Below, one piece after another: positions 1-30,829 of a stretch of 64,000 bases of DNA. Position 1 is the stretch's first letter; each line of letters starts with the position of its first letter. This DNA is from Phytophthora colocasiae (taxonomy: Eukaryota > Oomycota > Peronosporomycetes > Peronosporales > Peronosporaceae). The notes under the pieces are model-generated. The model made no database searches. It was not told where the DNA came from and was given only the letters and a program-made list of their open reading frames with translations. A program made the position numbers and the translations under genes. Location: NCBI GenBank assembly GCA_018806915.1, contig JAGKQI010000095.1, positions 62,001-126,000 on the forward strand. The letters are read 5' to 3'.

Positions 1-1034
1 GTCCGAGTTCGACACGCGAGACTGCATTACCAGTAGGACGCCCCGCGCCTACTGGTCCTTGGCGTTTTTTGAACGCCCGCCTGCTGTGCACTTGCGTGCA
101 TAGTGACCGATGTTACCACACAGGTAACATCGAACCTTGACGTTCTTACGCTACTGTTGACCAGCAGTCGTAGCACTCGAGAGGTCCATAGGCTCAGGAC
201 CTCCCGTCTTCGCAACAGGACGCGCCGGCTTCGGCGCGTTCGCATGGAGTTTAGCCTGGCGCCGGCTAAACTCCTCTTGCATCGCAAGGCTGATCGCCTG
301 CTCGAGAGTATTCGAATACTCTCGGAAGAGATACGTCTTGACGGGACCATCTCTCAGTCCCTTCATGAACGTGACGACCTTGGTCGCCTCGTCGACCGGG
401 TTGGCCACTATGTTCGATACCAAGTATCGAGCACGCTGGGCAAAGGTGTGAACATCATCCTTGCCCTACTGCAGATCGAGAAACTCCGCTCTCGATCTGA
501 ACTCGTTCTTCGGAGGCTCAAACGCAAGTTTGAGTTCCTCCTTGAACTCCTCGTACGTGCTGAAGCACGTAGGATCCGAGAGTCGGCGCCCATAGGCCCA
601 ACTCCTCGCACGTCCGCCAAGACATGACATGGCGAACGCGACCTTCGACATCGGGTCGACGATACGTCGAGCCGCAACGGCTGTGTCGAGTTCGACAAGC
701 CAACGAAGGAGGGTCTCGTCCTCCTTCCCCGTGTAGGTACTCACGTGGAGTTTCAACGACTCCACGCGTGGCTTCGGAGAAGCCACCGAGGCAGCAACAT
801 CTCGTTGCTCCTTAACAATGTCCCCCAGAGCAACACCATGTTGCTCTGTCGGCGATAGCGTACGAAGCATCGTCGCTACCGCTGCCTCTCCAATGACTTG
901 CGAAAGTCTTTGGAGACTTCTCACTCTGGGTCCGACAGGTGGGCACAGTCCGTGCGCGTCACGGACATGTGTGGGGTCCCAGTGGATCCCTGATCCATTG
1001 GGGAGTTCTCGACCCCGCGTTCGTATGACTCCAT
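1..1034 (-). pseudogene. Gypsy gag fragment, family H copy 1
   Basis: Capsid-type gag of a Ty3/Gypsy chromovirus, read leftwards from the ATG at 1034 and cut by the window edge. It matches the gag at 5885-6871 along its length, including the slippery A-run (complement of 64-70) and the zinc-knuckle segment. Relative to that copy it has a one-base loss near 915-925 and a second frame change between about 465 and 423, so no single frame covers it. The short hairpins typical of the family are present, for example the arms gagtttagcc and ggctaaactc (complement, about 246-275). It is a dead copy whose LTR lies just upstream at 1084-1537. Confidence 0.85.
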
Positions 1035-1083
1035 ACGAACGAACTGCAGTCGGTCGTGGGACGGACTACAAAGTGCTACCAGG

Positions 1084-1537
1084 TGTAATGGATCTGCTTA
1101 GACCTATTAGGTGGCGTACACGTGCTACGTGTATGAGGAAGCGTGCAAGTAGAATAGACTTAATTTAAGTATACTTGTTAATAAGTATAATTAAATCAAA
1201 TATAACTAAATTAACTGCAAAATACCGTAAAATGAGAACTGTTATTGAATTTTGCACAAGCCAATTATGGACCTCCTAAAACTGTTTGTTATCTATTTCT
1301 AAAGGGTCTGCCAACGTGTGGTTGGCAGAAACTCTACTCCGTGATTGGTAGAAATCCATTGCTTTCTACCAATAACATGCACAAATGCACACGAACCACC
1401 CAATAATGTGGTTCGCCCATGTAGCCATTGGTGTGTACAGCACACCAAGGTTTGAGGTCCCTTTCCAACCTCTAACAGTTATCGCAACTGTTAGAGTTAC
1501 AAGTGGTGTAGCCACTTGTACGTGTAACCCCGTTACA
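1084..1537 (-). repeat. 5' LTR of family H copy 1
   Basis: This 454-bp segment is the reverse complement of the LTR at 5377-5835, with many substitutions. On the minus strand it starts TGTAACGGGGTTACA and ends TTACA. It lies directly upstream of the gag on the same strand. It is more diverged than the other three LTR copies in the window, which suggests an older insertion. Confidence 0.85.
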
Positions 1538-1740
1538 ACAAGAAGTCATGTATACGCATATGATGGTGAGCTTGAAGGTCCACCGGCCAATTCCCCCTTC
1601 CACGCCTCCGCTGTCATGGCGTCCAGGACCAGTGGGTGGGCTCGCGTGCAGCTTGTACCAGTACTGCCCGCCGATTTCCACAAAATTCTTCGCCTTCCAC
1701 TGAAATCGCCGAACTAGCAAACGCCCCAACCGGACTATTT
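1538..1740. other. Unassigned sequence flanking the LTR
   Basis: A minus-strand reading frame runs from about 1804 into the LTR and is cut by it. It contains an unusual W/G-rich stretch (QYWYKL around 1650-1670), but I recognise no family. It may be a gene remnant truncated by the retrotransposon. Confidence 0.3.
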
Positions 1741-2042
1741 TTATTGATAAATTGTTTCTGTGGTAGTATTCGTCAGTATAAATAACGTTGGTGGCGATCG
1801 GCAATGTACAATGTTAACCTCATCGCTGACTGACATCGTCAACAAGAAGTATGGCTGTGATTCAAAGTTTATAAGCAACATACCCATTACAAAAACAGAC
1901 CCACTTGCGTTTGAATAGAAACGTTTGTTTGAGCTCAGTTTGAACGTCAGCGAATCCAATTCAGGGTACTCTGTAATTAATATCCACTTATGATATCCAT
2001 TCATATTTTCTCGAACATACGTACCAACGACTTCGTTTGGTA
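1741..2042 (-). pseudogene. Cadherin-repeat fragment, minus strand
   Basis: On the minus strand the translation shows the spacing of one extracellular cadherin repeat. There is a start resembling PNEVVGTYVREN, then LDSLTFKLSSN, a central SGSVFV, then LLINFES and YFLLTMSVSDE. These fit the family pattern D-sLtY-l, G-i-v, LdyE, Y-l-v-v-D. Cadherin repeats bind calcium in cell-surface adhesion proteins and have been reported in stramenopiles, oomycetes included. No start, signal peptide or neighbouring repeat in the same orientation is visible, so this is one repeat from a destroyed gene. Identification is by pattern only. Confidence 0.55.
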
Positions 2043-2169
2043 GTGCCTGTCTGAGACTTGAGCTTTATGGACCCGGTTCAGGTATGCTCTAACGCTTAAA
2101 CCCGTAGTACGTCTACAAAGCACTTAGCACTAACAAGCCGTTTCGAGCATTCCGGGGCCACTCCTTGCA

Positions 2170-2412
2170 GTTAATGGTGACGCTATTGACACTCTCTTCG
2201 CGATAGAGATCGGTTCTCGGGGACGCTATCACTGGTTTTCTTACTGCACTCCTGCGTTGGATTGACTTTGAAGTTGACTCACTGTTACGTTTGACTGTCA
2301 ACGTTTACGATAAATTTGGACTGAACGACAGCATCACAGCAGTAATTGCTATTCTCGATAATAATGACGCTCCATCGTACGAGCAAAAGTCATATGCAGT
2401 GCCGAAAATCCA
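2170..2412 (+). pseudogene. Cadherin-repeat fragment, plus strand
   Basis: The plus strand encodes a second cadherin repeat, GDAIDTLFAIE then LDFEVDSLLRLTVNVYDKFG, ending in the diagnostic calcium-binding linker DNNDAPSYE. A small insertion near 2260-2266 shifts the frame between the LD and DFE parts. It lies 128 bp from the minus-strand repeat and points the opposite way. The simplest reading is one cadherin gene broken by an inversion. The DxNDxxP-type linker makes this fragment the more secure of the two. Confidence 0.65.
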
Positions 2413-2431
2413 GCGCTAAGTTTAACTCTAT

Positions 2432-3024
2432 GATGTGCACCGACTATGTATATACGTATACCACCTGTTTGCAGCACGAAACCGAGCATGTATGCTGCGT
2501 GTATTCCGTGTCGTGCTTTCTATCCGTGAGTGTACTAGTAGCCACTGTAATGTTGTTGCAGGCTGCTTCTATCCGCTGATTGGCTACGAACTTGACATAA
2601 AACGGCTGTCTGTGGTTTGTAGTCGGATTCGGTATGGTCAAACAGACACCCTTGCGAAATTTCAGGCCCGCCAGGTCTGTAGTTGCTGCAGTATTACAAT
2701 CTAATCGCTGATTGGTTATTGCGTGTATACACGCCCTTCTATGTCCATTCTCATAGTGAACCATGTAGACATCGACATCTTACGAGTGGCTGTTTTTTTT
2801 TCGCGCGAATTTTGCACCAACTTGGCCCTCCTGAGCTTCTTCTGTCTGGCGAAGGAGTTCAAAACCCCAAACTAGTGATATCGAGGTGCCCAAAACTGTT
2901 AACTTTGGGTTGGGGGACCCCACGATACAGGGCAAAGGGGACCCCCGACAGAGGGGCAAAACCGGTTGAGGGGGACCCCCGGACCCCGCCGATACACGTG
3001 TATCGGCTGAAACATATATATAGG
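2432..3024. repeat. 593-bp direct repeat, copy 1
   Basis: Starts gatgtgcaccgactatg and ends at tatatatagg. It recurs at 3265-3857 with a constant offset of 833 bp and only about three or four substitutions. It holds CCAAT-like motifs (ctgattggc, ctgattggtt), repeated ggggaccccc blocks, an 18-bp palindrome and a TATA motif near its right end. It could be a partial tandem duplication of an 833-bp unit, or the two LTRs of a very short non-autonomous element. No coding potential is convincing. Confidence 0.9.
2989..3023 (+). promoter_or_regulatory. Palindrome plus TATA motif (copy 1)
   Basis: A perfect 18-bp palindrome, ccgatacacgtgtatcgg, is followed 5 bp later by acatatatatag. An E-box-like CACGTG forms its centre. 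The same arrangement recurs at 3822-3856. It resembles a core promoter with a dimeric factor site, but no transcript can be assigned. Confidence 0.4.
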
Positions 3025-3264
3025 GTTGCGCCGGATCGTGGGGCCGGAGGACAAACTTTGAGACGAGACTGTGTGCGTTGTAGTTGGCGGTAGCGGGCAA
3101 GTCGCGGCGCAAATCGTATCTACGGATCAAGGCGCGTCGAGTGGTACCGGTGGCGGGTCATGTATGTGCACAACCATTCCGCCCCGTCTATGTAAAGATG
3201 GCGTATACAATGCACGCGAACACGCACGTGGGAAGAAACAAACGACACACTTTTCCGCTTCTAG

Positions 3265-3857
3265 GATGTGCACCGACTATGTATATACGTATACCACCTG
3301 TTTGCAGCACGAAACCGAGCATGTATGCTGCGTGTATTCCGTGTCGTGCTTTCTATCCGTGAGTGTACTAGTAGCCACTGTAATGTTGTTGCAGGCTGCT
3401 TCTATCCGCTGATTGGCTACGAACTTGACATAAAACGGCTGTCTGTGGTTTGTAGTCGGATTCGGTATGGTCAAACAGACACCCTTGCGAAATTTCAGGC
3501 CCGCCAGGTCTGTAGTTGCTGCAGTATTACAATCTAATCGCTGATTGGTTATTGCGTGTATACACGCCCTTCTATGTCCATTCTCATAGTGAACCATGTA
3601 GACATCGATATCTTACGAGTGGCTGTTTTTTTTTCGCGCGAATTTTGCACCAACTTGGCCCTCCTGAGCTTCTTCTGTCTGGCGAAGGAGTTCAAAACCC
3701 CAAACTAGTGATATCGAGGTGCCCAAAACTGTTAACTTTGGGTTGGGGGACCCCACGATACAGGTCAAAGGGGACCCCCGACAGAGGGGCAAAACCGGTT
3801 GAGGGGGACCCCCGGACCCCGCCGATACACGTGTATCGGCTAAAACATATATATAGG
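3265..3857. repeat. 593-bp direct repeat, copy 2
   Basis: Second copy of the 2432-3024 repeat. It differs at a few sites, such as gatatc for gacatc, ggtcaaagg for gggcaaagg and ggctaaaac for ggctgaaac. The 240 bp between the copies (3025-3264) are G/C-rich and have no recognisable gene. The copy runs straight into the 13-bp tandem repeat. Confidence 0.9.
3822..3856 (+). promoter_or_regulatory. Palindrome plus TATA motif (copy 2)
   Basis: The same 18-bp palindrome and TATA motif as at 2989-3023, in the second direct-repeat copy. The palindrome is unchanged even though other bases in the repeat differ. Confidence 0.4.
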
Positions 3858-3899
3858 CCAAAACCCTAGGCCAAAACCCTAGGCCAAAACCCTAGGCCA
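3856..3899. repeat. 13-bp tandem repeat
   Basis: Three perfect copies of ggccaaaacccta followed by ggcca. The aaaccctagg core resembles a telomere-type CCCTAAA motif but is not the exact repeat. It abuts the end of the second 593-bp repeat. Confidence 0.9.
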
Positions 3900-4973
3900 G
3901 TCGCGCCACTGCTTCAGCACCGTCGCAACCGGTTTGTTGCTATTTTGCGTTTTTTGTTTCTCTGCTATAGAGATGTTTGTACCGTACGAACATCTTGTAG
4001 TTTCCACCGTCTATCTAAAACAAAAGCAGCAGATTTATGGGTCGGTTGGGCGTGTACGACACAATACACCTTTCGACTTTCTACACACGCACTGACTGTA
4101 CATATGTGTAGGTTACCTGCTTTTTGTGCACATAACAGGTCCTTTTAGCGCGCATCTACGTGGTGTATATCACGGGAAAGTGTGTACCTGTATTGTTTGG
4201 TAGTGTGTCTACTACGCGTGTTTCTCTTCTAAAGTTTCACTTTTTCCGCTCTAAGTTCAGCTAATTTTTACGGTTGACGGTGCTACTTAGATGTCCGTAA
4301 CGTAGGTTCTGGCGCCCAACACAATGGTACTTGGTAGCACTCTCAAATCTTAGTTTTGAAAAAGTTATTAAATGTCAAAGTGAATTTTCAAAATTTCGCC
4401 TTTGAGTGACCATAACTATACTTCGACTTAAAGTCTCCTCGTTCTACTTAGATGGATTCAATGTAGAATTAACGTGCTATGCGATTGTACTAAGAAGCAT
4501 CTGCAAATGTTAAGTCTTCGCATAGCTATTCAAATTTAAAGGCAAACTCACTCAAACTTACTACACATTAAAATCGCCAAAACGCCCACTAATAAAGTTT
4601 AGCTATGCTTACACGCTACCAAAATTTATTAGTTGGATTTAACGTACTTTTCATGCTCTTTCCGATGGTACTTCGTTTGTCTGCCAGATTTAATATCTCA
4701 AGTCATTTTTTGCTTATACAAGGAGTTTTTAACACGGACAAGTTGTACAGGTGTTCGGCCTGTATATGCTACATGGGGGTCTTACCATCGTATTCGCTGT
4801 GTCGAAATGCCCCATCTTTCCAATTTTCATGTAATGAAGTGAAGTATTAAGAAAATTAAAAACACGGCTGATTGGCCAGTCTATATCACATATGAATCCC
4901 ACCATCATCTTCTTCGTCTGAGATAGGGGTTGTCAATACTCGCAGCAACCCACGACACTTACATTCCTGCGCC
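3900..4973. other. Gene-free, partly A/T-rich stretch
   Basis: No reading frame here resembles a known protein and the longest frames look random. The sequence becomes A/T-rich after 4200. I see no tRNA, terminal repeats or clear promoter. Confidence 0.6.
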
Positions 4974-5376
4974 ATGCCTCGCCTAAGCTCGCGTCAAAAA
5001 GCTCTACGTACATTGGAGGCTGTCATAGCTGTGAGAACGGAAGCAGCAGCTTTGCGTTTTTTGGTTGATGAGAAAGACACTACCGAAGACGATTTGGATG
5101 AGCTGCACGTAGCAGCATACATATGTACAGGAGTGTGCTAGCATATCGGTACTTTGATCGATCATCATTATATCGCCGGCGTGGGGACCGATGAAAGAAG
5201 CTTCTATATGACGACGTATACTTGAACGATACCGAGTTCTTGGAACACTTTCGAATGGACCGGGAGACCTTCTTACGTCTTGTGCAACTTGTTCGGACTC
5301 AGCCAGCCTTGACATCTAGCGGGTACTGCTGTGGTGAAGTGGACGAAGATCTTTCCCGGAGAGACGATATCAGCCA
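4974..5376 (+). pseudogene. Harbinger-like transposase N-terminal relic
   Basis: A frame opening at the ATG at 4974 (MPRLSSRQKALRTLEAV) is followed, in another frame, by RYFDRSSLYRRRG, a TGA, and then LLYDDVYLNDTEFLEHFRMD and ETFLRLVQLV. The FxxxFRMxxxxFxxLxxLv pattern resembles the N-terminal region of PIF/Harbinger (HARBI1-type) DDE transposases. The coding sequence stops dead at 5376, where the family H LTR begins, so the catalytic domain is missing. It has at least one frameshift and one internal stop. Assignment rests on a short motif and is tentative. Confidence 0.45.
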
Positions 5377-5835
5377 TGTAACGGGGTTACACGTACAAGT
5401 GGTTGTACCACTTGTAACTCTAACAGTTAGGATAACTGTTAGAGGTTGGAAATGGGCCTCAGACCTTGGTGTGCTGTACACACCAATGGATACATGGGCG
5501 AACCACATTATTGGATGGTTCGTGTGCATTTGTGCATATTATTGGTAGAAAGTAACGGATTTCTACCAATCACTGAGCAGAGTTTCTGTCAACCACACGT
5601 TGGCAGACCCTTTAGAAATAGATAACAAACAGTTTTAGGAGGTCCAAATTGGCTTATGCCAAATTCAATAACAGTTCTCATTTTACGGTATTTGCAGTAT
5701 TAATTTAGTTATATTTGATTTAATTAAACTTATTTAAATAAGTATACTTAAATTAAGTCTATTCTAATTGCACGCTTCCTCATACACGTAAGCGCACGTG
5801 TACGCCACCTAATAGGTCTAAGCAGACCCATTACA
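5377..5835 (+). repeat. 5' LTR of family H copy A
   Basis: 459-bp LTR, TGTAACGGGG...TTACA, nearly identical to 10095-10555 and 30830-31289. Its first 68 bp are three consecutive hairpins: tgtaac/gttaca, then a 10-bp stem (5394-5403 with 5407-5416, loop tgt), then an 11-bp stem (5418-5428 with 5434-5444). The left flank is the Harbinger-like relic. No matching target duplication is found at any right-hand LTR, so the A/B array is not one clean insertion. Confidence 0.9.
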
Positions 5836-5884
5836 CCTGGTAGTACTTTGTAGTCCGTCCCACGACCGACTGCTGTTCGTTCGT

Positions 5885-6871
5885 ATGGAGTCATACGAAC
5901 GCGGGGTCGAGAACTCCCCAATGGATGAGGGATCCACTGGGACCCCTCACATGTCCCTGACGCGCACGGACTGTGCCCACCTGTCAGATCCAGAGTGGGA
6001 AGCTCTCCAAAGACTTTCACAAGTCATTGGAGAGGCAGCGGTAGCGACGATGCTTCGTACGCTATCGCCGACAGAGCAACACGATGTTGCTCTGGGGTAC
6101 ATCGTTAAGGAGCAACGAGATGTTGCTGCCTCGGTGGCTTCCCCGAAGCCACGCGTGGAGTCGTTGAAACTCCACGTGAGTACCTACACGGGGAAGGAGG
6201 ACGAGACCCTCCTTCGTTGGCTTGTCGAACTTGACACAGCCGTTGCGGCTCGACGTATCGTCGATCCGATGTCGAAGGTCGCGTTCGCCATGTCATGTCT
6301 TGGCGGACGTGCGAGGAGTTGGGCCTATGGGCGCCGACTCTCGGATCCTACGTGCTTCGGCACGTACGAGGTGTTCAAAGAGGAGCTCAAGCTTGCGTTT
6401 GAACCCCCGAAGAACGAGTTCAGATCGAGAGCGGAGTTTCTCGATCTGCAGCAGGGCAAGGATGATGTTCACACCGTTGCCCAGTGTGCTCGATACTTGG
6501 TATCGAACATAGTGGCCAACCCGATCGACGAGGCGACCAAGGTCGTCACGTTCATGAAGGGACTAAGAGATGGTCCCGTCAAAACATATCTCTTCCGAGA
6601 GTATCCGAATACTCTCGAAGAGGCGATCAGCCTTGCGATGCAAGAGGAGTTTAGCCGACGTCAAGCTAAACTCCATGCGAACGCGCCGAAGCCGGCGCGT
6701 CCTGTTGTGAAGACGGGAGGTCCGGAACCTATGGACCTCTCGAGTGCTACGACTGCTGGTCAACAGTAGCGTAAGAACGTCAAGGTTCGATGTTACCTGT
6801 GTGGTAACATCGGTCACTATGCACGCAAGTGCACAGCAGGCGGGCGTTCAAAAAACGCCAAGGACCAGTAG
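5885..6871 (+). pseudogene. Gag of family H copy A
   Basis: Structural gag protein that would form the virus-like particle and bind the element's RNA. The frame opens at the ATG at 5885 (MESYERGVENSPM), 50 bp after the LTR, and ends with TAG at 6869-6871, 329 codons including the stop as in copy B. A retrotransposon capsid region spans about residues 60-240. A C-x2-C-x4-H-x4-C zinc knuckle (CYLCGNIGHYARKC) is encoded at about 6793-6834. A single nonsense change, CAG to TAG at 6767-6769 compared with copy B, cuts it before the knuckle. The slippery heptamer for pol lies 13 bases before the gag stop. Confidence 0.9.
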
Positions 6872-9800
6872 GCGCGGGGCGTCCTACTGGTAATGCAGTC
6901 TCGCGTGTCGAACTCGGACACGCGACATTGAAGGCTGCTGCCCCCAGCGAGAAGGTTTCTCGCTGCGAGATGCAAGATGATAAGTCAGGCCTTGTCATCC
7001 TGAACGTGATGTCGAAGAGAGTGAACTCTCTTCGTGCCCTAGTGGACTCGGGCGCGTCGAACAACTTTGTTCGACAGGGAAGTCTTCGAAGGCTTGACTT
7101 CGAAGAGACCGACACGCCGCTAGGCGTGTTGGAGGTGCGGTTGGCAACAGGTGCCACCGTGAGGACTGAGAAGCGCGTAGTCCGTGTGCGCTTCTCTTAC
7201 AAACGAAGGACGTTTGTGGAAGACCTTATCGTCTTGGATCTAGACGATAAGTTCGACTTGGTATTAGGCATGCCGTGGCTTGCACGGCATGACCCGGTGA
7301 TCAACTGGGAAGCGTACGCTCGTACGCTTCAACAACGCATGCGCGACAGAGAGCGATGGCCCTGTCAGTGCTGCACATGCACCAGGCGATGCATGTGAAT
7401 CCCCAGTTGAGGCAGCAGCGTCCGCCGCTGCCCCCGATCGCCGCCGGCGACCGCCAGCGACTCAGCGAGTCGTTGGGAGAAAATGTGTGTCGACTCAGAA
7501 ATCTGAGCCGAAGGGTCGCGGTCACATGAGTGATGGTCAGGTGAATCGCATTCACCTGAGAGAAGGTAAAATACCGGTATTACCGGTATCCTTGGAGGTA
7601 CTTCAAGCCCCCAAGGGTCGCGCCGACGACGTCGCGTCAACTCTGGGAGTTGACGAAATAAATAAAATACGGGGAACCGAAAGGCGTGCGTCAGCCCTGG
7701 GAGCTGACGCCACTGTCGCGTCGTTGCTAGTTCCGGGAACTAGCGATCGGTCATCAGCTCCGGGAGCTGATGAGACGTGTATAGGCGAACAGTCGCTGCT
7801 AGTTCCGGGAACTAGCGATCGTACATTCGCTCTGGGAACGGATGATATGTGTACAAGCGAACACTCGCTAGCGCAGGAAGCTAGCGAGAGCACGTCGACT
7901 CCGAGAGTCGACGATGCGGTTGCTTCATCCGCTCCGGGAGCGGATGGAGGCGCAGCGGTTCAGGGAACCGACTGCGCGGCAGGAGGTGCTGGCGGTTGCA
8001 AACGCCCAGCACCCGAACAACCTGCGTGCTTACGTGCAGCAGCGCTGCACGCGATGAGCGGCACTCAATCCGGGCTTGATAGTGCGAGTCAGCGGAAGGA
8101 ATCCGCTGACGATTGCGATAACGTCCCGTCCAAGGTGCGATGCCTTGGACGTGGAGCACCTGGAGCCGGGCTCCATGGTAGTAGACCTTCGCGGCGCGAG
8201 CTCAGAGAGCTGCGCGAGTCTCAGTCCGGGACTGAGACGGGTGTGTCTGCAGTGCAGACACCGAGTGTCGAGACGTTGAACGTCTTGACCACGTACTGGT
8301 ACTGGATTACAGTACCAGAGGATGCGGTTGGAGAACCCGCCGACGTGTGCGTCGGTGTTGACCGCACTTCCAACGATGAGTTGGAAGCGCTTCGCGCGGG
8401 ACTTGTACGATGGACGCATCGAACAAATTTGCATTCTCTCGGATATCGAGAGAGTGGATCGCGAAGCCGAGGAGCTGAAGCAGCTCGTCGTCGATGGCAT
8501 CACTGAGGGCGATGACCCCCTCAGTGCGAAGACCAAGAAGCAACGCTTCGAAGAGCAGAGTTGGGACTCGTTGAGGTCGAGTCCCTACCACGAAGTTCTG
8601 CGGGAGTACAAGGGTGTACTCCCGGACGAGATTCCTTCAGAGCTTCCGAAGGACAAGGGCGTACAGCACGAGATTGATCTCGTGCCGGGCACGAAGTACT
8701 GTGTTACACGGCAGTGGCCACTGCCGCGTGAACAAGTGCAAGCGATCGACGACTTCTTTGAAAGTCGTCGTCTTGCAGGTCAAGTGCGGGAGTCAAAGTC
8801 CCCGCACAGTGCTCCAACGTTCTGTGTGAAGAAACCACAGGGCGGCTGGCGCATCGTTCATGCGTATAACAAGCTGAACGATGCGACGATACCGGCGCAG
8901 ACGCCGATACCGCGAAAGATGTTATCATCGATTCGATGGCCTTGAGCACTATCTTCAGTGCTCTAGATCTGCGTGATGGATTCTATCAAATCCTCATGCG
9001 TGAGAGGGACATCCCTCTCACAGCGGTAAGCACTCCAAGCGGTATGCTTTGGGAGTGGCTCGTCATGCCACAGGGGCTTAAGAACGCCCCTGCGACGTTC
9101 AATAGATGCGTGACACATCTATTGCGCTCGGTGCGCGACTTCGCGCCGAGCTACTTCGACGACGTGTTCGTCCACAGCCGGGCTGTGAACGGGAAGACGG
9201 ACATTGAGATGCACAAGGTGCATCTCCGGAAGCTGCTAGAGCTTATGAGGAAACATAAGCTCTATGCGAACCTGAAGAAGTGTATCTTCGGGGCGAGAGA
9301 GATACCCGTGCTGGGGTGTCTCGTGGGGAAAGACGGCGTGCGCCCTGACCCAGAGAAGGTCAGAGTGATCAATGAATGACCCACGCCATCCAATGTGAAG
9401 GAACCGAGGCAGTTCCTTGGGCTTGCCACGTACTTGTGCAAGTACGTGGAGAACTATGCGGGCAAGATTCGCCCGTTGTCACAGCTTCTTAAGAAAGAAG
9501 CTGAGTGGATTTGGACGACCGAGTGCGAGGAGGCATTCGGTGCAGTCAAGCAGGGCTTGACTGAAGCGCCGATCTTGGCCGTGGCGGACCAAGATCGTCC
9601 ATTCCACGTAGTGTGCGATGCATCCGACTTTGCAATCGGATGTGCATTGATGCAACACGATCACGAAGGGCGTGATCGTGCAGTCTATTATCAATCGCGT
9701 CAGCTGAAGCCAGCTGAGCGTAATTATCCCGTACATGACAAGGAGCTCCTTGCCATGAAGTATGCACTCGCAAAGTTCCGAGTGTATCTACTTGGGAGTA

Positions 9801-10094
9801 GACCATTCGTGGTCTATACAGACCACGCATTATTGCGGACGGCGATTAAGTCGCCGCACATCTCGCAACGTATGGCGAGATGGTTGTCCTTCTTCGCGGA
9901 GTACAACTTCCGGGCGGAGTACAAACCCGGAAGACTCAATGTAGTGGCCGACGCGTTATCGCGTCGCCCTGACTATGCGGAGACGGTCGACGCCAACGCT
10001 GTTGGCGTCGTGAGGACAAGTGTGCCGTCGTCAACGTTGATTGACGACGTGAAGAACGCGTATGCAAGAGATGCAGACGCGAAGGGGCTGCTGG
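6829..10094 (+). pseudogene. Pol of family H copy A, truncated
   Basis: Encodes in order: an aspartic protease with DSGASNNFV and LVLGMPWLARHD (about 7040-7300), a long low-complexity linker built of repeated PGTS/PGAD modules (7490-8270), an RT with the catalytic YFDD at 9152-9163, and the start of RNase H (VVCDASDFAIGCALMQ, TDHA). Damage seen against copy B: a 2-bp loss at about 7309, a 1-bp loss at about 8914-8917, and a frame change near 8290. A TGA at 9377-9379, in a position where relatives usually have Trp, is shared with copy B. The gene ends abruptly at 10094, where the next LTR starts, so the integrase is missing. Confidence 0.9.
6850..6890 (+). promoter_or_regulatory. -1 ribosomal frameshift signal, family H (copy A)
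   Basis: The heptamer A AAA AAC (6850-6856) sits in the X XXY YYZ register of the gag frame (tca aaa aac). An 8-nt spacer follows, then a perfect 8-bp stem (ccagtagg 6865-6872, cctactgg 6883-6890) with a 10-nt loop that spans the gag stop. The pol frame is -1 relative to gag and open here. Heptamer and stem also occur in copy B. Confidence 0.8.
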
Positions 10095-10555
10095 TGTAAC
10101 GGGGTTACACGTACAAGTGGTTGTACCACTTGTAACTCTAACAGTTAGGATAACTGTTAGAGGTTGGAAATGGGCCTCAGACCTTGGTGTGCTGTACACA
10201 CCAAAGGATACATGGGCGAACCACATTATTGGGTGGTTCGTGTGCATTTGTGCATATTATTGGTAGAAAGTAACAGGTTTCTACCAATCACTGAGCAGAG
10301 TTTCTGCTAACCACACGTTGGCAGACCCTTTAGAAATAGATAACAAACAGTTTTAGGAGGTCCATAATTGGCTTATGCCAAATTCAATAACAGTTCTCAT
10401 TTTTACGGTATTTGCAGTATTAATTTAGTTATATTTGATTTAATTAAACTTATTTAAATAAGTATACTTAAATTAAGTCTATTCTAATTGCACGCTTCCT
10501 CATACACGTAAGCGCACGTGTACGCCACCTAATAGGTCTAAGCAGACCCATTACA
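10095..10555 (+). repeat. 5' LTR of family H copy B
   Basis: 461-bp LTR with roughly eight small differences from 5377-5835. It follows the truncated RNase H of copy A directly and precedes the copy B gag by 49 bp. Its left flank (gctgg) has no counterpart right of 31289, so B's insertion site has been rearranged. Confidence 0.9.
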
Positions 10556-10604
10556 CCTGGTAGTACTTTGTAGTCCGTCCCACGACCGACTGCAGTTCGT
10601 TCGT

Positions 10605-11045
10605 ATGGAGTCATACGAACGCGGGGTCGAGAACTCCCCAATGGATCAGGGATCCACTGGGACCCCTCACATGTCCGTGACGCGCACAGACTGTGCCCAC
10701 CTGTCGGACCCAGAGTGGGAAGCTCTCCAAAGACTTTCACAAGTCATTGGAGAGGCAGCGGTAGCGACGATGCTTCGTACGCTATCGCCGACAGAGCAAC
10801 ACGATGTTGCTCTGGGGTACATCGTTAAGGAGCAACGAGATGTTGCTGCCTCGGTGGCTTCCCCGAAGCCACGCGTGGAGTCGTTGAAACTCCACGTGAG
10901 TACCTACACGGGGAAGGAGGACGAGACCCTCCTTCGTTGGCTTGTCGAACTTGACACAGCCGTTGCGGCTCGACGTATCGTCGATCCGATGTCGAAGATC
11001 GCGTTCGCCATGTCATGGCTTGGCGGACGTGCGAGGAGTTGGGCC
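10605..11045 (+). CDS. Gag of family H copy B, 5' part
   Basis: First 147 codons of gag, from ATG at 10605 to the point where the family C element is inserted. Sequence is almost identical to copy A. When the inserted element and one copy of the GGCC duplication are left out, the frame continues at 23795 and runs to the stop at 24338-24340. That gives 329 codons including the stop, with no internal stop seen. Copy B gag was therefore intact when it was disrupted. Confidence 0.88.
11042..11045. repeat. Target site duplication (left) of family C element
   Basis: GGCC immediately left of the LTR. The same four bases stand right of the other LTR at 23791-23794. The empty site in copy A (6319-6330) has a single GGCC followed by tatggg, which proves the insertion point. 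Confidence 0.85.
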
Positions 11046-12282
11046 TGTGGTGTAGTGGATCCGCTGGAATGAGCAGGGATCCAACGTTCACACACGGCGC
11101 CCAGACACTGACTAACGGAGGGGGTACTCCGATAACCGTGGGGTTGCTGAGGCTCACCTTGTGTACCCGTCAGTGGGCGGGATCTGCTCTCTCAGGAACG
11201 GGAGACTGTACACAGGCGTGAGGGCTTGAACGTCCTTGGCGGGGACTTGGGAGGTTGGACTTGCGTGGGTATTCCTGCACACAGGTCCTGGTTGGGGGGA
11301 TCTTGGTCTTGGACTCGAAGATCTTGTGGATCCTTGGATCCGGGGTTGCCTTGATGGGTGTGGGGTCCTTTTCCTTTCCTTTACTGTCTTGCTTGCCGCC
11401 TCCTGTAGCGGTTGGTCTTGAGGGTGTTGAGAGGTCGAGGGATCCTACGGTTAAGCAATCAACACCGTTGGATCCGGGGTCTTCACTTAGCGTAAGGTAA
11501 GCCGGCCAAATCGGGGATCCGGTCTTAGCTGTAGCTAGGTGTGCGAAGAAACTTGCAGGTAGACTAAGGGGAGACCAATACACTATCCTCTTCCCTTGTC
11601 TGAGGTCCTGAAGAAAACCACTTGCGCACTAGAAGGTAAATTCGACTCTCTGATTTATGGCTATCCAGTTTCTCATCCTGTACCCTATCTTTCCCATAGC
11701 AAATCTCTATCTTAGATCATGCTGGCTCTCTTCCAACTGCTTCGCCACGTTGATGTCATAAACCTTGAGGATCCGGGTTTGGATCCGAGGATCTAGCTTC
11801 GGGATCCGAGGATCCGGCTTCGGGATCTCTGGATCTTGGATCTTGGGGATCCGGCTTCAGGATCCGAGGATCTTGGATCTGGATCTCTGGATCTTGGATC
11901 TTGGGGATCTGGCTTCAGGATCCGAGGATCTTGGATCTGGATCTCTGGCATCTGGATCCGAGGATCTTGGATCTGGATCTCTGGCATCTGGATCTTGGGG
12001 ATCCGACATCAGGATCCGAGGATCTTGGATCTGGATCTCTGGATCTTGGATCTGGATCCCTGGCATCTGGATCCAAGGATCTTGGATCTGAAGGATCCGC
12101 ACTCAGGACTGCCGGATCCGAACTTAAGTCAGCCAGGCCAAGTGGATCCTAACTTAGGGTCCGCCCTAGAGTAGGTACCAGTTCCAGGGATCTGCCCTTA
12201 TCGTAGCACCACTGTCGCACGTCACCCATCATCGTGGTCGTTCTGCGTCCTGTCCGGCTTGATTTGAATCCACTTCACCACA
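11046..12282 (-). repeat. 3' LTR of family C element
   Basis: 1237-bp LTR, matching 22685-23790 apart from a longer GATC-rich array (11763-12110) and about two substitutions (for example actgtcgc against actatcgc). By element polarity this is the 3' copy. Confidence 0.92.
11763..12110. repeat. GATC-rich minisatellite in 3' LTR
   Basis: Degenerate tandem units built from ggatcttggatctggatctctgg and variants, with GATC roughly every 6-12 bp. The same array is about 130 bp shorter in the other LTR (23402-23620), so units have been lost or gained since insertion. Confidence 0.9.
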
Positions 12283-12293
12283 ATCGCCCCTGG
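12283..12293 (-). other. Candidate polypurine tract of family C element
   Basis: On the minus strand CCAGGGGCGAT directly precedes the 3' LTR start TGTGGTG. It is the right place for the second-strand primer but is short and only partly purine. Confidence 0.4.
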
Positions 12294-12383
12294 GACGAGG
12301 TTGTTGCCGCACAACGGCATCACGTCGTTCCCATACAAAATTCCAATTTGGCTCGTCATTCCTCAAATTGCGACCTCTGCAAA

Positions 12384-15300
12384 ATGGATCGGCCTGCCGA
12401 CGACTGTTCCTCTGCGTACACCACCGTGTTCTTCGGCCAAGATCCCTCTGCGGCTCAGCCTCCATGTCCCCATTGTGACCACGCTCCTTCCGATCCCGCT
12501 GTAGCCGCGACTCCAACGGTCCCGGATCTGGATCCTGTGTATGCTGCCGTCACTTCCCTCCAGTCTCTCTCCGATGGATACGCTGAGATGCAGGCCAGCT
12601 ACCAACAAGTGCTCCGGGATCTCACTTCGGCGCGGCGACACAATGAAGAACTCCATGGTCTGTTGCAGCCTCGTCTGAACCTTGCTCAAGCATTCATTGA
12701 CTTCGCGCAGCATCGGTATAATGTTTCTCAAGGTGCTCTCCGGCTGGCGAAGCAAAAGGAAGCGGAAGCGGTGCAAGATCTGGATCGGCTCAAGGATCAC
12801 TTGCGTGAGCTCGACGTCCTCAAGGCCCAATACTCGGATCTAGAGGTCTCTTCAGCAGAAGCCTATGCTGACTTACAGGACTATGCAGTCGGACTTGAGC
12901 GGCAGATTGCTGGGGAAGACATCTCGGCGGAGGATCCATCCGTGGTACGGTTGGCTCAAGAGCTTGAGCATCAGCGTGAAGAATCTTCGGAACTGTTAGA
13001 GCGTTCAACGGAATTGGAGGAGAAGTTGAAAGACGCGGAGACCGCGCGAGATGCGGCCTAACTCGAGCAAAATCGTACCAGCGTCCAACTCGCGGAGTCC
13101 GCTATCCGTTGCGACCAACAAGCACGCAAGATTGAAGATCTTCGGGCCCACCGTGACCAGCTACGTGAATCGCTCAAGCAGCTCCCCAATCAAAATCTCA
13201 TCAAGACTGTCGAGTCGCTCAAACTGGATCTTCATGTTCGGAACGAGAGGGTCCATGAGCTGGAGAGTCTTCTCGCCAAATCAGAACGTCGACGTGGGGA
13301 ACTCCATCGAGTTCATACGCATACTGTCCAGAAACTCGACCGGGCCAGCGAAAACCTGGCGCGTCTGACGCAAGAGAACCTCAACGCCCGTGAAGAGATC
13401 GAGCATCAACAGAGACGGTCTGAGAAGAACGTATCCAAGCGTCAGAGCGCCGAGAAGAGTCTCCAGAGGGCCGAAGATGATCTGCTGAAAGTAAAACGTC
13501 AACGCGATCGGGCGGACCAAGCCAGAGAGAAGGCCGAACGTGAGATCGATCGGATCCGGAACAAGTCGTCAGAACAGAGGAAGATACGTGCGGATCTGGA
13601 TCGGATCCGCCTCGAGCGCGACGAGGCTGCCCGGGCGTCTACAGCAGCGATGCAAGAGCTGGACAAGGCCATGCAGAAGATCTCCACAGTAACCCTCGAA
13701 CGCGATCAGGCCAGGCAGATCTTCGCCGGGAAGGATCAAGTGATTCGTCACCAAGGGATGGAGATCCAGCGCTTGAAGAGTGAATCGGAGCAGCTGGCTG
13801 CGTCGTTGACACGGGCAGTGACCAGCGAAGAAGACCTCAAGCGTCTCCGCCACGACCATCAAGATCTCAAAACGAAGTATGACGCGCTCGAGCAGGAGCA
13901 CCTCGCCCTGGAAGAAGAGCATCGCAGTGTAATTGACGAGCGTACGTCGGCCCTTCGTAATTTGGCCTCGATCGCCTCTATGGCTATGCGCAGTTCCTCG
14001 AATGCCCCAAGCGCGCAGTCTGAGTCTTCTACTTCCCAAGAAGGTTCTTCCGCCAAGCGTCGTCGACGCGAAACTTCTGTCCCGACAGAAGAGCCGCCGC
14101 ACAAGATATCGCGTCAGGTCGATCCTGCAGATCCTTCCACTGTCGTGTCCCAGCCTGCGCCTGTTCCCGTTTCCAAAACAGCAGGTGATGCGACTGACGA
14201 TCCGGATCTCGACTTCGGGGACGCGGCGCAAGAGCGACTGGGGAAGGATCAAGACTCGGCGGATCCCAAGCGTGTTCCAACTCCGGACAAGTCTGCTGAG
14301 GCACCCCTGCCGAGTGCACCCTCAGAGATCCCGGATCCGACGGCTTCCGCGAAGTCTTCCGCTACCGCTGCCAAGCCCCCTGAGGGATCACAGGGTTCCG
14401 GTGAGGGAGGTCCAGCTGGATCTGGTGCGGGAGGCGACCCAGGATTCGGCTCGGGCAGCGAGTCGGAGGAATTTGATGAAGAACAGTTGAAGGCCGTCAT
14501 GTCGCGCTCTCGGTCGGAACTGCGTCGGCGTTCGTCGGGGGACGGGTCGGCGTCTGCTCCCATTGAGATCCGAGACGCCCCCACTACCCACTCCAGTGTT
14601 GCATCCAGCCCTTCACGTTCTGCGTCCCCCGAGGTTCACCCGACGGATTCTCTCGAAAGGAGTGTTGGGCTTCAGTTCGAGGCGTACGGCCCACTAGAAG
14701 AGTTCGTTCCGGCTGTTCGGGATCCACGCGAGATGTCTCCCGAAGACGTGGCCCCTTGGATCGCAGACCAAGTCAGCCTTCTGAGTCTGCAAACACTCTC
14801 TGCCAGTGGCCTGACCGCTTGTTATCGCCCAGGGTGGCTGTTTCCCCTTCGTGTCGGTCGTGGTGCTATGGATCCATCCAGCTACGCTCCAGATCTAATC
14901 TCCAAGGCGCAAATTACCGAGTTGTACGCGACGGAGCCATGGAAGGGTCTGGGGCCCCAGTCTCCGCCTCCTTACACTTTTCAAGCCGGCTTGTCACCCC
15001 ATCTCGCGGAGATCCTGAGCTGGTATGACGCATTCGAGGCTGCCAACTTGCAAGCGATCTGGGAATGCACGCACTCGTTCCCCATCTCTATAGAGCTTCG
15101 GAAGGCGGACCATTGGTTCACCAGCTTCTATCGCCGCCGAAAGAATCGCGGGTCCCATGCCCGGAGCAACTACCGCAAGCTTCAGAGCAAGATCTTCGAG
15201 AGGATGCGACTGACCGGGTGTTGCGACTTGGATCTGTGGTTAGATCCACACTTCGTCCACTTCCCCTTACCGGCGGAAGACGTCACTTGGTATCCTGGGG

Positions 15301-15500
15301 CTGAGGCTGTCGACACTGGAGCAGATCCTCCACGGAGCCTCTTAGCTGCCCTCGAAGATTGTGATCGTCAAGATCCTTGGCGTACTCACTACCGGTCTGG
15401 ATCTTCTCACCCCAGCCTTGGCACTAGTCGACTCTCCATGAAGTTCGTCCGATCGCTACCTGATTCCGATGCTGAAGCTGCCAGGGCCAGAACTTTGTAA
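12384..15500 (+). pseudogene. Antisense coiled-coil ORF of family C element
   Basis: A frame of about 1040 codons on the strand opposite gag-pol, between pol and the 3' LTR. From the ATG at 12384 (an in-frame ATG at 12234 lies in the LTR) it is open to 15500 except for one TAA at 13059-13061. The first half is a long charged coiled coil rich in E, R, Q and L heptads (about 12560-13960). A basic cluster KRRRR (about 14055-14070), a Pro/Ser/Asp-rich region, an acidic SESEEFDEEQ stretch and an RS-rich patch follow. A more ordered C-terminal part contains WYDAFEA, IWECTHSFPISIE and WFTSFYRRRK. I recognise no known domain. Such length without stops suggests a real gene; extra antisense ORFs are known in some plant Gypsy elements, Grande for example. 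Confidence 0.75.
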
Positions 15501-15599
15501 GCGGCATTGCGTAACTTCTTATATTTTCTTGCCCGTCTTCTGTCTCCTTCACCTGGTATCCATGTCCTCCATCTTCAGTTTTGCTAAGATGTATTTCGA

Positions 15600-16015
15600 G
15601 ATCCAGTATCCAAAACTGGGGATCCAGCCTTTGGATCCTACAAATCCGACTCAGAGCTCTGAGGATCCAGCCTCGGGATCCGGAGATCCGACTTCCAAGA
15701 TGGATCCATTTCGAAAATCCGGGGATCCGGCCTCGGGATCCGAAGATCCAGCTCTCAAAATCGAGGATCCGAGGATCCGGCCTCGGGATCCAGAGATCCA
15801 ACTTCCAAACTCGAGGATCCGGCCTCGGGATCCGGAGATCCAACTTCCAAACTCGAGGATCCGGCCTCGGGATCCGGAGATCCAACTTCCAAACTCGAGG
15901 ATCCGGCCTCGGGATCCGGAGATCCAACTTCCAGAATGGATCCGTTTCGAGGATCCAGGGATCCGGCCTCGGGATCCGAAGATCCAACTTCCGAGACATA
16001 TTCCCTTATGAGCCC
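15600..16015. repeat. 42-bp tandem repeat between convergent genes
   Basis: Units of 42 bp built on ctcgaggatccggcctcggg and gatccggagatccaacttcc, with about four near-perfect copies at 15770-15940 and degenerate units on both sides. It lies between the ends of the antisense ORF (15500) and the chromodomain ORF (16222). Units are a multiple of three, so spurious repeat proteins appear in several frames. Confidence 0.9.
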
Positions 16016-16221
16016 CGAGGATCCAGGTAGAAAATTCGTCCCAAACTCGAGCTCTAGACGGGATTCGAGCGTAGGTTCTGATCCCGCTTTCCAGCCCTCT
16101 CCAGAAATCGGTCTTCTTTTCTTCATATACAAGCATACATCGCGTCCACTCGCAGTAAACTGCCAGTCTTCTCTCTCCACACTGACGAGCGCCCTCACCA
16201 GTGAAGATCCAATCCCGTCGC

Positions 16222-16782
16222 CTACTCTTCTTCGTGCGACTGCATCGCTTGGAACCGGTTCTTTTTGCTTCGTTCTTGGAGGAATTCATGCAGTAACGCG
16301 CCGCAGTTCAAATCCGCTTCGTCCACCCAAGTGGGATTCTCATACCCTTTCCAGAAAACTTGGAATTCTCGTCGGATCCGGCCGTATCGAGTGGGTCGTC
16401 CTGTCCGGACGTCCGCGATCCGCTCGACTTCGAACTCGTCGTCCTCCAGATCACGATCCCAGCTGTCCTCCGGTAACAAAGCTTCGTCGAAGTCTAAGCG
16501 ATCCGCTTCGTCCACTGTCAACTGGGTCTTCGGTCGGTCTGGGAATGTCCTGACTGGCTTCAACTTGGAAATGTGTACCACCGGAAACAAGTGGTAGTCT
16601 GTACCAACGATCTCCAAGCGGGCTGCGTACTCATTCGTCATCTCCGCCACACGGAATGGTCCATGCCACAGGTGGGCCAGTTTCTTGGCGTATCCCTCCT
16701 TAACTCTGTCTAAGAACAGCCACACTTGGGAATCCGGCCTCGATAGAGTGTTGAGTCGCCGTCTCGTTCTGCCGGTCTGCAC
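16222..16782 (-). pseudogene. Integrase C-terminus and chromodomain, family C
   Basis: The last part of pol, one frame off from the integrase core. It starts with QVWLFLDRVKEGY and LWHGPFRVAEMTNEYAARLE, the GPY/F-type module that helps integrase bind DNA. It ends with a chromodomain, FEVERIADVRTGR then REFQVFWKGYENPTWV, of the kind that steers insertion to modified histones. The frame change from the integrase ORF falls near 16750. Terminal sequence is rich in E, K and R. Confidence 0.85.
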
Positions 16783-17872
16783 GATCCGAAATCGCCCGCT
16801 TCAGGCGGTCATTCACCTCAGCCCTGGCTAGTTGGTAGTGTCGCTGGATCCGATACCTCCAGCGTCGTGGATCTGTATCTCGACGTCCGGTATTCCCCAC
16901 AGAGAGCGTTGCTTCCAGAGTCGTCTTGGGGTCCCAACCGTGTGCGAGGTAGAATGGTGTGTCGCCCCTAGTCCGATCTTGCGCAGTATTCAAGGCGAAA
17001 GTCAATCGTTCGGCATACTCGTCCCAATCGCGCTGGTCGGGATCCTGGACATACATCTTGATCGCTCGGGTAATTGTCTGCACCATCCGCTCAGCCGTGC
17101 CATTTGACTGTGGTCGGTAAGCCATAGTGGCTCTCTGGCGCTGGCCTAGGATCCGGTTGAAAGCACGAAAGAAGTCGGACATAAACCCAGGTTCTCGGTC
17201 GTGACGGATCACCTGGCTGGCGCCGAAACGAAGAAACACACAGATCTCATAGGACTCCGCGATGGCCTGGGCCGTTCGCGAGTTATTCGCATTGACAATC
17301 ACATAACCAGTGAAGAGATCCACCCATACCAAGAGTTCAGTGTTCCCTTTCTCGGATCGTGGTAGCGAGGGTATGTGATCCATGGCGATCACTTGGAACG
17401 GGTAGGTGGCTTGAATGTTGCCTGGCGATACACCACGAATGGTGGGTCGCCCCTTGCCTGTCTCGCAGTCCACGCATTCTCCCACAAACCGCTGTACAGA
17501 TTTGAAAAGTCCTCTCCAGTAGAAGTGATCCTTGATCCTCTGGTACGTACGGCCGATCCCTTGATGTTCTCCTTCTAGACTGTTGTGATAGTGGTGCAAC
17601 AAGTCGGCCTGAAGCGTCTCAGGTATAACCAGTCGTAGCAATCCATCTCGATCGGCTTCGGCCCTTCGTGAAGGTGCGCAATAGAACAACAGCTCATCCT
17701 CGTCCAACTCGAAGTTGTCTGCCAGCAGGCGGCACGTCTTGGCTTCAGCCGCAGTCAGATCTGTCAGCTGTCCCCGCAGGAACGACTTCAGGTTGAAGAT
17801 CCATGTCTCTTCGTCCTGGGCTTGTCGGATCCGGTCGATCCTCAACCGTTGCACGGACTCCTCGTCGAGTAC
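16700..17872 (-). pseudogene. Integrase core, family C
   Basis: DDE integrase that joins the element's cDNA to the genome. The HHCC zinc finger is seen as H...H (HHYHNSLEGEHQGIGRTYQR) and C-x2-C (CVDC). The catalytic acidic residues lie in AMDHIPSLP, RHDREPGF and NGTAERMVQ. It is in the same frame as the RT/RNase H part and separated from it only by a TGA at 17873-17875, where CGA (Arg) is a likely ancestor. It runs out of frame after about 16750, where the chromodomain frame takes over. Confidence 0.88.
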
Positions 17873-20800: not shown

Positions 20801-21370
20801 CCTGGATGCCTCGCAATCGGCGGCGCCCTTCCTGCAGGCCGTCTCCGCCGCTCGCTCATATTTGTGTGAATATGAGGAGCTCAGATCCCCACTAAGTGCG
20901 GAATCAGACGACTGTTCGGACCTGCCCCGTCCGTGACCCATGTCGCATGTGCGACACCGATCTTCAAGCTGTGTCAGGTAAGGATCCGACTTTGCTTGTA
21001 GATGGAGTTGGGAGGCGTGAGGCACCTCATTTGAAAGGTCTTGATCGGGCGCGTATAATGGTAGCGCTCCGAGTTCCTGGGCATTCCTGTGAGCTCCGGG
21101 GCACCCCAAAACCTTGGATCCGACTGTGCCATCTGAATGATGGTCACCTGTCCCATGATTATGGGGCGACCCTTCGGCATCATTGTCCCGGCTCTGTGCA
21201 GAGACAGGGCAGCCCTCCGGATCTTCAAGGAGGCGTGTCGACATGCCCCCTTCGGCTTCTAGAGCTCCGTTGGAGGCGTGTGATGGCTCGTTAGACGCGC
21301 CTTGCATCGCGCTGCATGCCCATACCAACTTCGGCAGTGGGGCATGCATATTCGCCCCAGGGCACGTCAA
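17873..21370 (-). pseudogene. RT and double RNase H polyprotein, family C
   Basis: 1165 codons in the -1 frame relative to gag, overlapping the gag end. The first 400 residues are Asp/Pro/Ser-rich with no protease motif that I can recognise. RT follows, with DIRLCIDYRLVN, PFGLFEWNRMPFGLKNAP and catalytic YIDD at 19391-19402. The connection and first RNase H contain YASEWAISASL and LTRHSTLGWL. A second RNase H-like domain starts at SFDGSARVKRGGGSFSAIVW and includes NEAEYNGLLL and CGDSNLVIRQ. This architecture is common in oomycete Gypsy polyproteins. The frame is intact to the TGA at 17873-17875 that separates it from integrase. Confidence 0.9.
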
Positions 21371-22314: not shown

Positions 22315-22411
22315 CTTCTTCTTCGACGTTTTACCACCTGAGATCTGCGCGGGGGTGGTGGTGGTGGATGAAGATCCAACAGCTTTCGCTGATGAGTCCC
22401 CACCCGGCGGA

Positions 22412-22684
22412 TCAGAACTCGCGTTCCGATCCGCGGGGTTCCCCGAAGGGACCTGGGGAGGAGGGAGAGGTTTTTCTTCCGAGTCTGTTGCCAGACTCGC
22501 CTCCTTCCTGTCGGCAGAGCTCCTTCCCAGGGCTCCGCCGATCCGTGGATCTAGCGTTTAGCGGTGCTGACGGCGATCCAACGACCGTCGGCACTTCTTC
22601 TCCCGGTTCTTCCTTCACTTGTACAGTCTCTTCGGACTCACGGTGATATCCGCCGTCCCCAAAAGATCCGGGCACGCGCACCAT
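22412..22684 (-). other. Short ORF next to 5' LTR, family C
   Basis: The minus strand opens with ATG at 22684, the first base after the 5' LTR and overlapping the primer site. It runs about 90 codons to 22412, rich in Glu, Gly, Pro and Ser (ETVQVKEEPGEE). It could be a leader peptide or an out-of-frame start of gag. No family is recognised. Confidence 0.35.
22667..22683 (-). other. Primer-binding site of family C element
   Basis: On the minus strand TGGTGCGCGTGCCCGGA lies one base from the 5' LTR. Its complement ends ...GCGCACCA and divides well into a T-stem, 7-nt acceptor strand, discriminator base and CCA, as expected of a tRNA 3' end. The tRNA identity cannot be told here. Confidence 0.7.
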
Positions 22685-23790: not shown

Positions 23791-23794
23791 GGCC
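23791..23794. repeat. Target site duplication (right) of family C element
   Basis: GGCC, identical to 11042-11045. The gag sequence tatgggcgcc resumes directly after it. Confidence 0.85.
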
Positions 23795-30735: not shown

Positions 30736-30819
30736 TATACTCAGATTTCTCTTGGGAACTTGACGGTCTTGTCAAGTTCTGTTGATTGACGTATCGAGAC
30801 CGATACGTCGAATCTTAAC

Positions 30820-30829
30820 GGGGGGATGG
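30820..30829 (+). other. Polypurine tract of family H copy B
   Basis: GGGGGGATGG lies directly before the 3' LTR start TGTAAC. A similar GGGGGATGG precedes the family D 3' LTR. This is the expected second-strand priming site. Confidence 0.65.

Follow-up and report, generated by a model that had tools for sequence, protein, structure and literature searches.

Short perfect hairpins run through one clade of Ty3/Gypsy retrotransposons in Phytophthora colocasiae

RNA viruses with genome-scale ordered RNA structure show excess folding energy along their coding RNA. At the DNA level, coding palindromes were described in 2019 from four mitochondrial genomes of nematomorphs, where the repeats counted are of 15 bp or more, with a mean of 43 and a maximum of 142; no fewer than 48 of 110 are species-specific, and the authors discuss conversion and leave the cause open (PMC6649704). 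For yeast genes, a study by Abraham and Hazkani-Covo describes inversion of the spacer between perfect arms of more than 9 bp, with repeated flips (PMC8604942), and a further report argues that template switching both makes and keeps the hairpins of RNA genes (PMC8794818). Here, we describe a 64,000-nt stretch of Phytophthora colocasiae DNA (contig JAGKQI010000095.1, positions 62,001 to 126,000 of the forward strand; hereafter the window), in which copies of family H, a high-copy Ty3/Gypsy long terminal repeat (LTR) retrotransposon, carry a dense array of short perfect hairpins. A literature search over titles and abstract openings, with most subscription journals outside its coverage, returned no retrotransposon with an element-wide hairpin array, which agrees with an earlier note on this DNA that knew of no such description; the nearest precedent found was the nematomorph palindromes.

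The H array resembles those palindromes in that perfect inverted repeats lie in conserved coding sequence, both arms are coding, the protein is kept, and positions are gained and lost, in the nematomorph case between species. For H, a protein unchanged despite the repeats was seen for integrase (IN) and RNase H only. When 28 distant relatives were aligned, H kept the common residue at 65 of the 65 conserved RNase H–IN columns in stem codons, and it departed from that residue at 3 of 120 conserved columns outside stems. On this comparison the integrase and RNase H protein appears to pay no visible price for the hairpins. Unlike the long mitochondrial repeats, the arms of the H clade measure 7–12 bp and belong to a retrotransposon, where they occur both inside and outside recognised genes; the other elements of the same genome lack such repeats.

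A stem was scored wherever a perfect inverted repeat had an arm of 7 bp or more and a loop of 0–12 nt. By this count, 141 were found in the 7.5-kb H segment 23795–31289 (18.8/kb), and the other H segments held 15.6/kb (1–1537), 18.0/kb (5377–10094) and 13.7/kb (10095–11045). The values for the parts of the window outside H were 1.3/kb (1538–5376), 1.6/kb (11046–23794) and 0.6/kb (31290–64000). Arms covered 33.5% of the bases of 23795–31289, and its 137 non-overlapping hairpins correspond to one per 55 bp, a wider spacing than the 40 bp or so proposed in the earlier note. The H hairpins have 7–11 perfect base pairs and are mostly 15–30 nt overall. In the 23795–31289 copy, arms of 7, 8, 9, 10, 11 and 12 bp numbered 32, 26, 43, 24, 11 and 1, respectively, with a peak at 9 bp, an upper end at 11–12 bp and a single longest arm of 12 bp, unlike a chance series, which is expected to drop about fourfold at each step. 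Relative to 20 dinucleotide shuffles, 6-base inverted repeats in 24000–31289 were enriched 15- to 39-fold at loops of 3–12 nt, 3.4-fold at 16–20 nt, 2.0-fold at 21–30 nt and 1.0- to 1.3-fold beyond; since the enrichment fades beyond about 30 nt, the hairpin effect in H is local.

The individual stems quoted earlier were exact on recheck, namely four hairpins, one of them at 7056–7075 (plus strand; 9-bp arms, 2-nt loop), and a perfect 18-bp palindrome at 26394–26411 (plus strand). Within 26041–27064, where about 25 stems had been claimed, 22 were counted with arms of at least 6 bp and loops of up to 10 nt (200 codon shuffles: mean 2.6, maximum 8); of the arms of at least 7 bp, for which a minimum of 12 and about one by chance had been stated, 17 were counted (shuffles: mean 0.7, maximum 4). 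The hairpins had been placed inside coding sequence. They do lie there, in gag, reverse transcriptase (RT) and RNase H–IN, and they also fill the stretch between pol and the 3′ LTR (29689–30816, plus strand) and the first ∼200 bp of that LTR (30817–31289, plus strand; hairpins to ∼31023), with few in 31024–31289.

To assess the coding regions, shuffles that keep both the protein and the codon set were used. The RT open reading frame (ORF; 24957–27065, plus strand; RVT_1, 2e-26) had 41 stems against 2.5 ± 1.5 in the shuffles, the RNase H and integrase ORF (27081–28598, plus strand; RT_RNaseH, Integrase_H2C2 and rve) 27 against 1.6, and the 294-amino-acid gag ORF (5885–6769, plus strand; Retrotrans_gag, 8e-11; Ty3_capsid, 7e-8) 12 against 1.1. 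In pol of the sister subfamily J, 45 stems were counted against 5.6, and three control ORFs of the window showed no stem excess (1, 3 and 2 against 1.05, 3.4 and 1.4). The earlier note would have given up its claim had the density been no higher than in codon-shuffled sequence or equal to that of other Gypsy families; it exceeded the former as above, and the latter showed 0–1.5 stems/kb. Folding was analyzed on 16 hand-chosen 150-nt pieces rather than on the whole element. Seven of the eight H pieces gave z-scores of −3.9 to −4.7 and the eighth −1.1; two J pieces gave −4.5 and −4.0, and four controls −1.2 to +1.7. Folding energy well below shuffles in seven of eight H and both J chosen pieces is a feature shared with genome-scale ordered RNA structure, from which H differs in its local near-perfect hairpins, its arm limit and its little long-range excess. 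Arm length was weakly related to GC content in H (rho −0.19, p 0.03) and unrelated in J, and the frame classes of the stems showed nothing decisive.

All element loci were taken from this one genome (92.5 Mb, 105 contigs). Seventy-two loci (L001–L072) were chosen for their location or for a match to RT, RNase H or integrase, with the best scores preferred, so that the survey is a non-random one. Family H accounted for 47 loci (45 distinct copies) with 11.8–19.9 stems/kb, the lowest value belonging to L066, which is only partly H. The sister subfamilies were I (eight loci, 5.2–8.2/kb), J (two loci, 10.0 and 9.1/kb) and K (two loci, 5.7 and 6.9/kb). The remaining 13 were other Gypsy elements of about four tree groups, with 27–42% protein identity and 0–0.9 stems/kb. 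Four more loci picked by an integrase profile, which did not align to the tree query, had 0–1.2/kb, and two other families of the window 0.4 and 1.5/kb. In a midpoint-rooted FastTree tree of 27 rows, whose support values were not read, the hairpin-rich subfamilies formed one group next to a branch (L039) with 0.9/kb. The hairpin array was thus shown to be confined to one clade among the loci examined. The best 85 of 4730 candidate RNase H–IN protein matches were 88–100% identical, with open frames of up to 1753 amino acids, and at least 85 H copies are present in the genome. Among the best 120 of 6413 protein matches, relatives were named in Phytophthora cactorum, P. fragariae, P. idaei, P. 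rubi, P. fragariaefolia, P. palmivora, P. cinnamomi, P. megakarya and P. ramorum, and, at 62–69% identity, in Globisporangium splendens and Peronospora effusa. No relative turned up when IMG/VR was searched by pattern.

Variation within H was examined in 45 distinct rows over 25976–30050 (44 cover the start and 30 the end; the minus-strand piece 1–1537 was left out of the alignment), and interior stem sites were selected solely by the pairing of their neighbours, blind to their own state. Variants shared by at least two rows numbered 8 at 419 interior stem sites and 206 at 3593 other sites (p 3e-4), and those in at least four rows 2 and 97 at the same sites (p 0.002). Singletons were less reduced (54 and 636, p 0.01), and many of them are expected to postdate insertion. 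For the part up to 28516, third codon positions carried 4 shared variants at 94 stem sites and 87 at 743 others (p 0.03), and the first two codon positions carried 1 at 183 stem sites and 34 at 1491 others (p 0.17). In the part beyond 28516, the counts were 3 at 142 and 85 at 1359 (p 0.06). These main counts, and the loop blocks below, were made on distinct copies with duplicates removed, whereas the counts of multi-base clusters, single changes, pair-creating variants, broader pairs and loop alleles given below for H include two genomic copies twice (L001, which is the 5377 copy, and L006, which equals L013).

We tentatively favour purifying selection on locally folded RNA, over templated conversion, as what keeps the array. 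H and its sister subfamilies would fold as a string of independent short hairpins, about one per 55 nt in H. Purifying selection on the element RNA, or on the RNA and first-strand complementary DNA (cDNA) alike, would retain them, with stems fitted in through synonymous and other permitted codon choices and with broken-stem copies leaving fewer descendants. More speculatively, as a guess from arm length, compaction might shield the RNA from attack by base pairing, for instance in small-RNA silencing, while no helix would be long enough for enzymes that act on double-stranded RNA; the limit of 11–12 bp would thereby be explained. The suggestion in the earlier note of a highly folded genomic RNA finds support in the z-scores of the chosen pieces and in the scarcity of shared variants in stems. 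Were conversion strong enough to keep shared variants out of stems, one would expect to see arms rewritten, variants that create pairs, or double changes, and because such signs were scant we lean to selection. Evidence of a mutational drive was slight: the 210 interior stem pairs held no double change over the 45 rows, no multi-base arm rewriting was seen in subfamily I pairs or H copies relative to reversed and complemented controls, and position-matched pair-creating variants in H numbered 49 against 42 expected, a count that includes the loop inversions.

Several observations weigh against selection on folded RNA. Two pieces of subfamily I folded at z +0.3 and −2.1, and sense and antisense strands folded almost equally in H and J, with the antisense better in I and K. 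In a broader set of stem pairs, with end pairs added, a single copy had a compensatory double change, and three other doubles were non-pairing. Few hairpin positions survive between subfamilies, a single base pair among ∼140 hairpins would have to matter enough for selection, and a hairpin at 5878 over the gag start speaks against the idea of an open 5′ leader. The mismatches fixed in H stems had no wobble preference (G-T 7 and A-C 9 of 23), as conversion would also have it. At H stem ends, G-T and A-C numbered 24 and 25 on the outer side and 15 and 24 on the inner side; the corresponding values were 2 and 3 (outer) and 4 and 12 (inner) in I, and 2 and 7 (outer) and 2 and 3 (inner) in K. This stem-end comparison was weak even on Escherichia coli 16S and 23S rRNA (8 and 6, 8 and 4).

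A first count of H mismatches gave 13 G-T, 11 A-C and 8 others, with no G-T preference. Two wobble counts speak for selection. In J, G-T exceeded A-C at stem ends, by 13 to 5 on the outer and 12 to 3 on the inner side. Among shared H variants, three stem pairs changed to G-T and none to A-C, the corresponding numbers at other sites being 57 and 96 (p 0.055). Single-copy interior mismatches in stems of at least 8 pairs, post-insertion changes included, were G-T/A-C 12/9 in H, 7/2 in J, 1/2 and 0/0 in I, and 0/0 and 1/1 in K. The wobble tests do not decide between selection and conversion, and strict Watson–Crick pairing could be explained either by selection on both RNA and cDNA or by conversion.

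A possible alternative is that templated conversion writes and keeps the hairpins: in reverse transcription one arm would be the template for the other (quasipalindrome correction by template switching), the rate being high in this clade, with protein selection removing harmful events. Its most far-reaching version, in which the clade palindromises its own genome, arm copying outruns point mutation, a third of the sequence becomes 7–11 bp stems and protein alone limits where, is only slightly less probable. Conversion would fit stems that are near-perfectly Watson–Crick paired, a trait that tracks one clade rather than the host genome, and an array that looks the same inside and outside recognised domains. 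The loops of these hairpins also bear on it. In 75 H hairpins with arms of at least 7 bp, seven variants alter both ends of a 2–4 nt loop, and six of the seven are the exact reverse complement, against 7 of 89 comparable blocks elsewhere (p 1e-5). Of all loop alleles with at least two changes, 6 of the 9 in 2–4 nt loops were inversions, as against none of the 19 in 7–15 nt loops. The inverted loops, all on the plus strand, lie at 27642–27645 (4 nt, 7-bp stem, one copy), 27684–27686 (3 nt, 10-bp stem, exact in three copies), 28245–28247 (3 nt, 10-bp stem, exact in one copy), 28393–28394 (2 nt, 10-bp stem, one copy), 29057–29058 (2 nt, 11-bp stem) and 29787–29790 (4 nt, 10-bp stem, one copy). 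The inversion at 29057–29058 is found in five copies, including the window copy, that are not mutual nearest relatives, so it may have originated repeatedly or spread by recombination.

In the yeast study (PMC8604942), exact flips of short loops between perfect arms, including AA–TT, are likewise described; there the inversions are few and confined to arms of more than 9 bp, unlike H, with one inverted-loop stem of 7 bp and a hairpin per ∼55 nt. Because ordinary yeast genes with perfect repeats show the same inversion, those in H would be a consequence of perfect arms and no proof of how the arms originated, and they do not mark the H polymerase as special. Template-switch systems also homogenise arms, and multi-base events of this kind were not caught here. 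Among 122 multi-base clusters in H, six gained an inverted match of at least 8 (five loop inversions and one indel case), with 3 and 0 in the controls, and no cluster in subfamily I did so. Single changes by which a local inverted match grew to at least 8 numbered 41 among 745 in H, against 21 reversed and 8 complemented, and 18 against 9 and 2 in I (seven comparisons summed), an excess over mirror controls that is partly due to stems already existing. Hairpin-templated mutation, another proposal of the earlier note, therefore fits the loops and, to some extent, these single changes; no arm was seen to be rewritten over several bases.

That hairpins turn over from one subfamily to another also speaks for conversion. 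H hairpins were retained at 4 of 58 positions in J, 1 of 49 in I and 0 of 54 in K; J hairpins were retained in H at 6 of 36, and between I and K the values were 2 of 17 and 4 of 20. When hairpin registers were slid by 1–3 between subfamilies, 0 or 1 was kept. Two I lineages at 86% identity shared 19 of 25 hairpins. Most hairpins were thus shown to be replaced between subfamilies. At some of those kept between I and K, compensatory changes were clear, e.g., at L047:2254, L056:2255 and L070:3185 (oriented loci), and these speak for selection. On the side of conversion, each of the four subfamilies showed slightly higher conservation of the 5′ arm than of the 3′ arm (0.602/0.579, 0.591/0.577, 0.654/0.624 and 0.575/0.548), as if the former were the source, each difference being small. 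One integrase hairpin, at 28235–28257 (L047:2581, oriented), has near-identical arms in H and I (L047) and one mismatch in K, and is among the few kept clade-wide.

It is improbable that the repeats arise from a host process, be it template switching in replication or the resolution of cruciforms. Homogenised arms and inverted spacers in yeast, and the similar proposal for RNA genes, would suit it (PMC8604942, PMC8794818). Against this, other Gypsy loci of the same genome had 0–1.5 stems/kb, three of them pooled had fewer long stems than codon shuffles, and the slight excess in the window at 12–22.6 kb (ratios 0.8–4.7 by loop length) was far below H. Even less credible is that the array, with its 15–30 nt hairpins throughout the element, serves as a small-RNA source or decoy. 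Known Dicer substrates are longer than arms of 11–12 bp, at which the H arms end, which makes a small-RNA source unlikely, and no Rfam family reached its gathering score in 5377–31289. Chance, base composition and codon usage are refuted, since dinucleotide, codon and protein-preserving shuffles fall far below the observed stems and folding.

If the array is selected, a protein-coding genome would here have been forced, to an extreme degree, into local RNA hairpins. The element, with graded sister subfamilies for comparison, would then be a natural system in which to ask about the benefit of RNA structure for mobile elements and the helix limit of 11–12 bp. If it was instead written by reverse transcription, it would be the mutational signature of one polymerase lineage and bear on the origin of perfect stems. 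The turnover between subfamilies and the many H copies in one genome make both readings testable.

The organization of H is that of Peronosporales Ty3/Gypsy elements of the SH3_Tf2-1 type, with protein relatives in several Phytophthora species: LTRs flank the element, and gag is followed, according to Pfam matches, by protease, RT, RNase H and IN, with SH3_Tf2-1 last. The other Gypsy loci examined in this genome differ from H in lacking the array. The LTRs are ∼460–475 bp long and appear as direct repeats at 5377 (5377–5837, plus strand), 10095 and 30830–31289. The copy at 5377–10094 (plus strand) comprises the 5′ LTR, gag, protease, RT and part of RNase H, and is cut inside RNase H where the next H LTR starts. 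A hairpin with 10-bp arms from 5878 crosses the start of its gag ORF at 5885 and could affect translation. The piece at 1–1537 (minus strand), with an LTR and the gag start, is 95% identical to 5377–6919 on the opposite strand. A second copy begins at 10095–11045 (plus strand; 951 bp, LTR and gag start) and resumes at 23795–31289 (plus strand); in an alignment with the first copy, 23795 falls at position 950, and the coordinates run on from the first part. From this alignment, the two parts look like one H copy split by a nested 12.7-kb insertion.

In the second copy, the protease ORF lies at 24298–24999 (plus strand; RVP_2, 6e-9) and the C-terminal part of integrase with the SH3 domain at 28517–29632 (plus strand; SH3_Tf2-1, 4e-14). 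An imperfect tandem duplication of ∼132 bp was found at 25744–25975 between protease and RT; most other H copies align with a single unit, and a similar duplication occurs in subfamily J (L069:2613–2930). The protease–RT stretch 24886–25873 is 84–92% identical in most aligned H copies, and the remaining pol 94–98%. Beyond pol, a 235-amino-acid sense ORF (29771–30478) and a 421-amino-acid antisense ORF (29374–30639, minus strand), the latter spanning the end of pol and the stretch that follows, had no match in a Pfam search; the antisense frame may reflect composition, or it may represent an antisense gene.

Three pairs of 300-bp sequences in the window are 100% identical (2427–2726/3260–3559, 11046–11345/22685–22984 and 49477–49776/60579–60878) and may, judging by this identity, be LTRs from other elements that inserted very recently. 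The pair 11046–11345/22685–22984 sits within the insertion that splits the H copy, and near both ends of that insertion, at 11789–12110 and 23428–23597, short tandem repeats with 58-bp and 21-bp spacing were observed.

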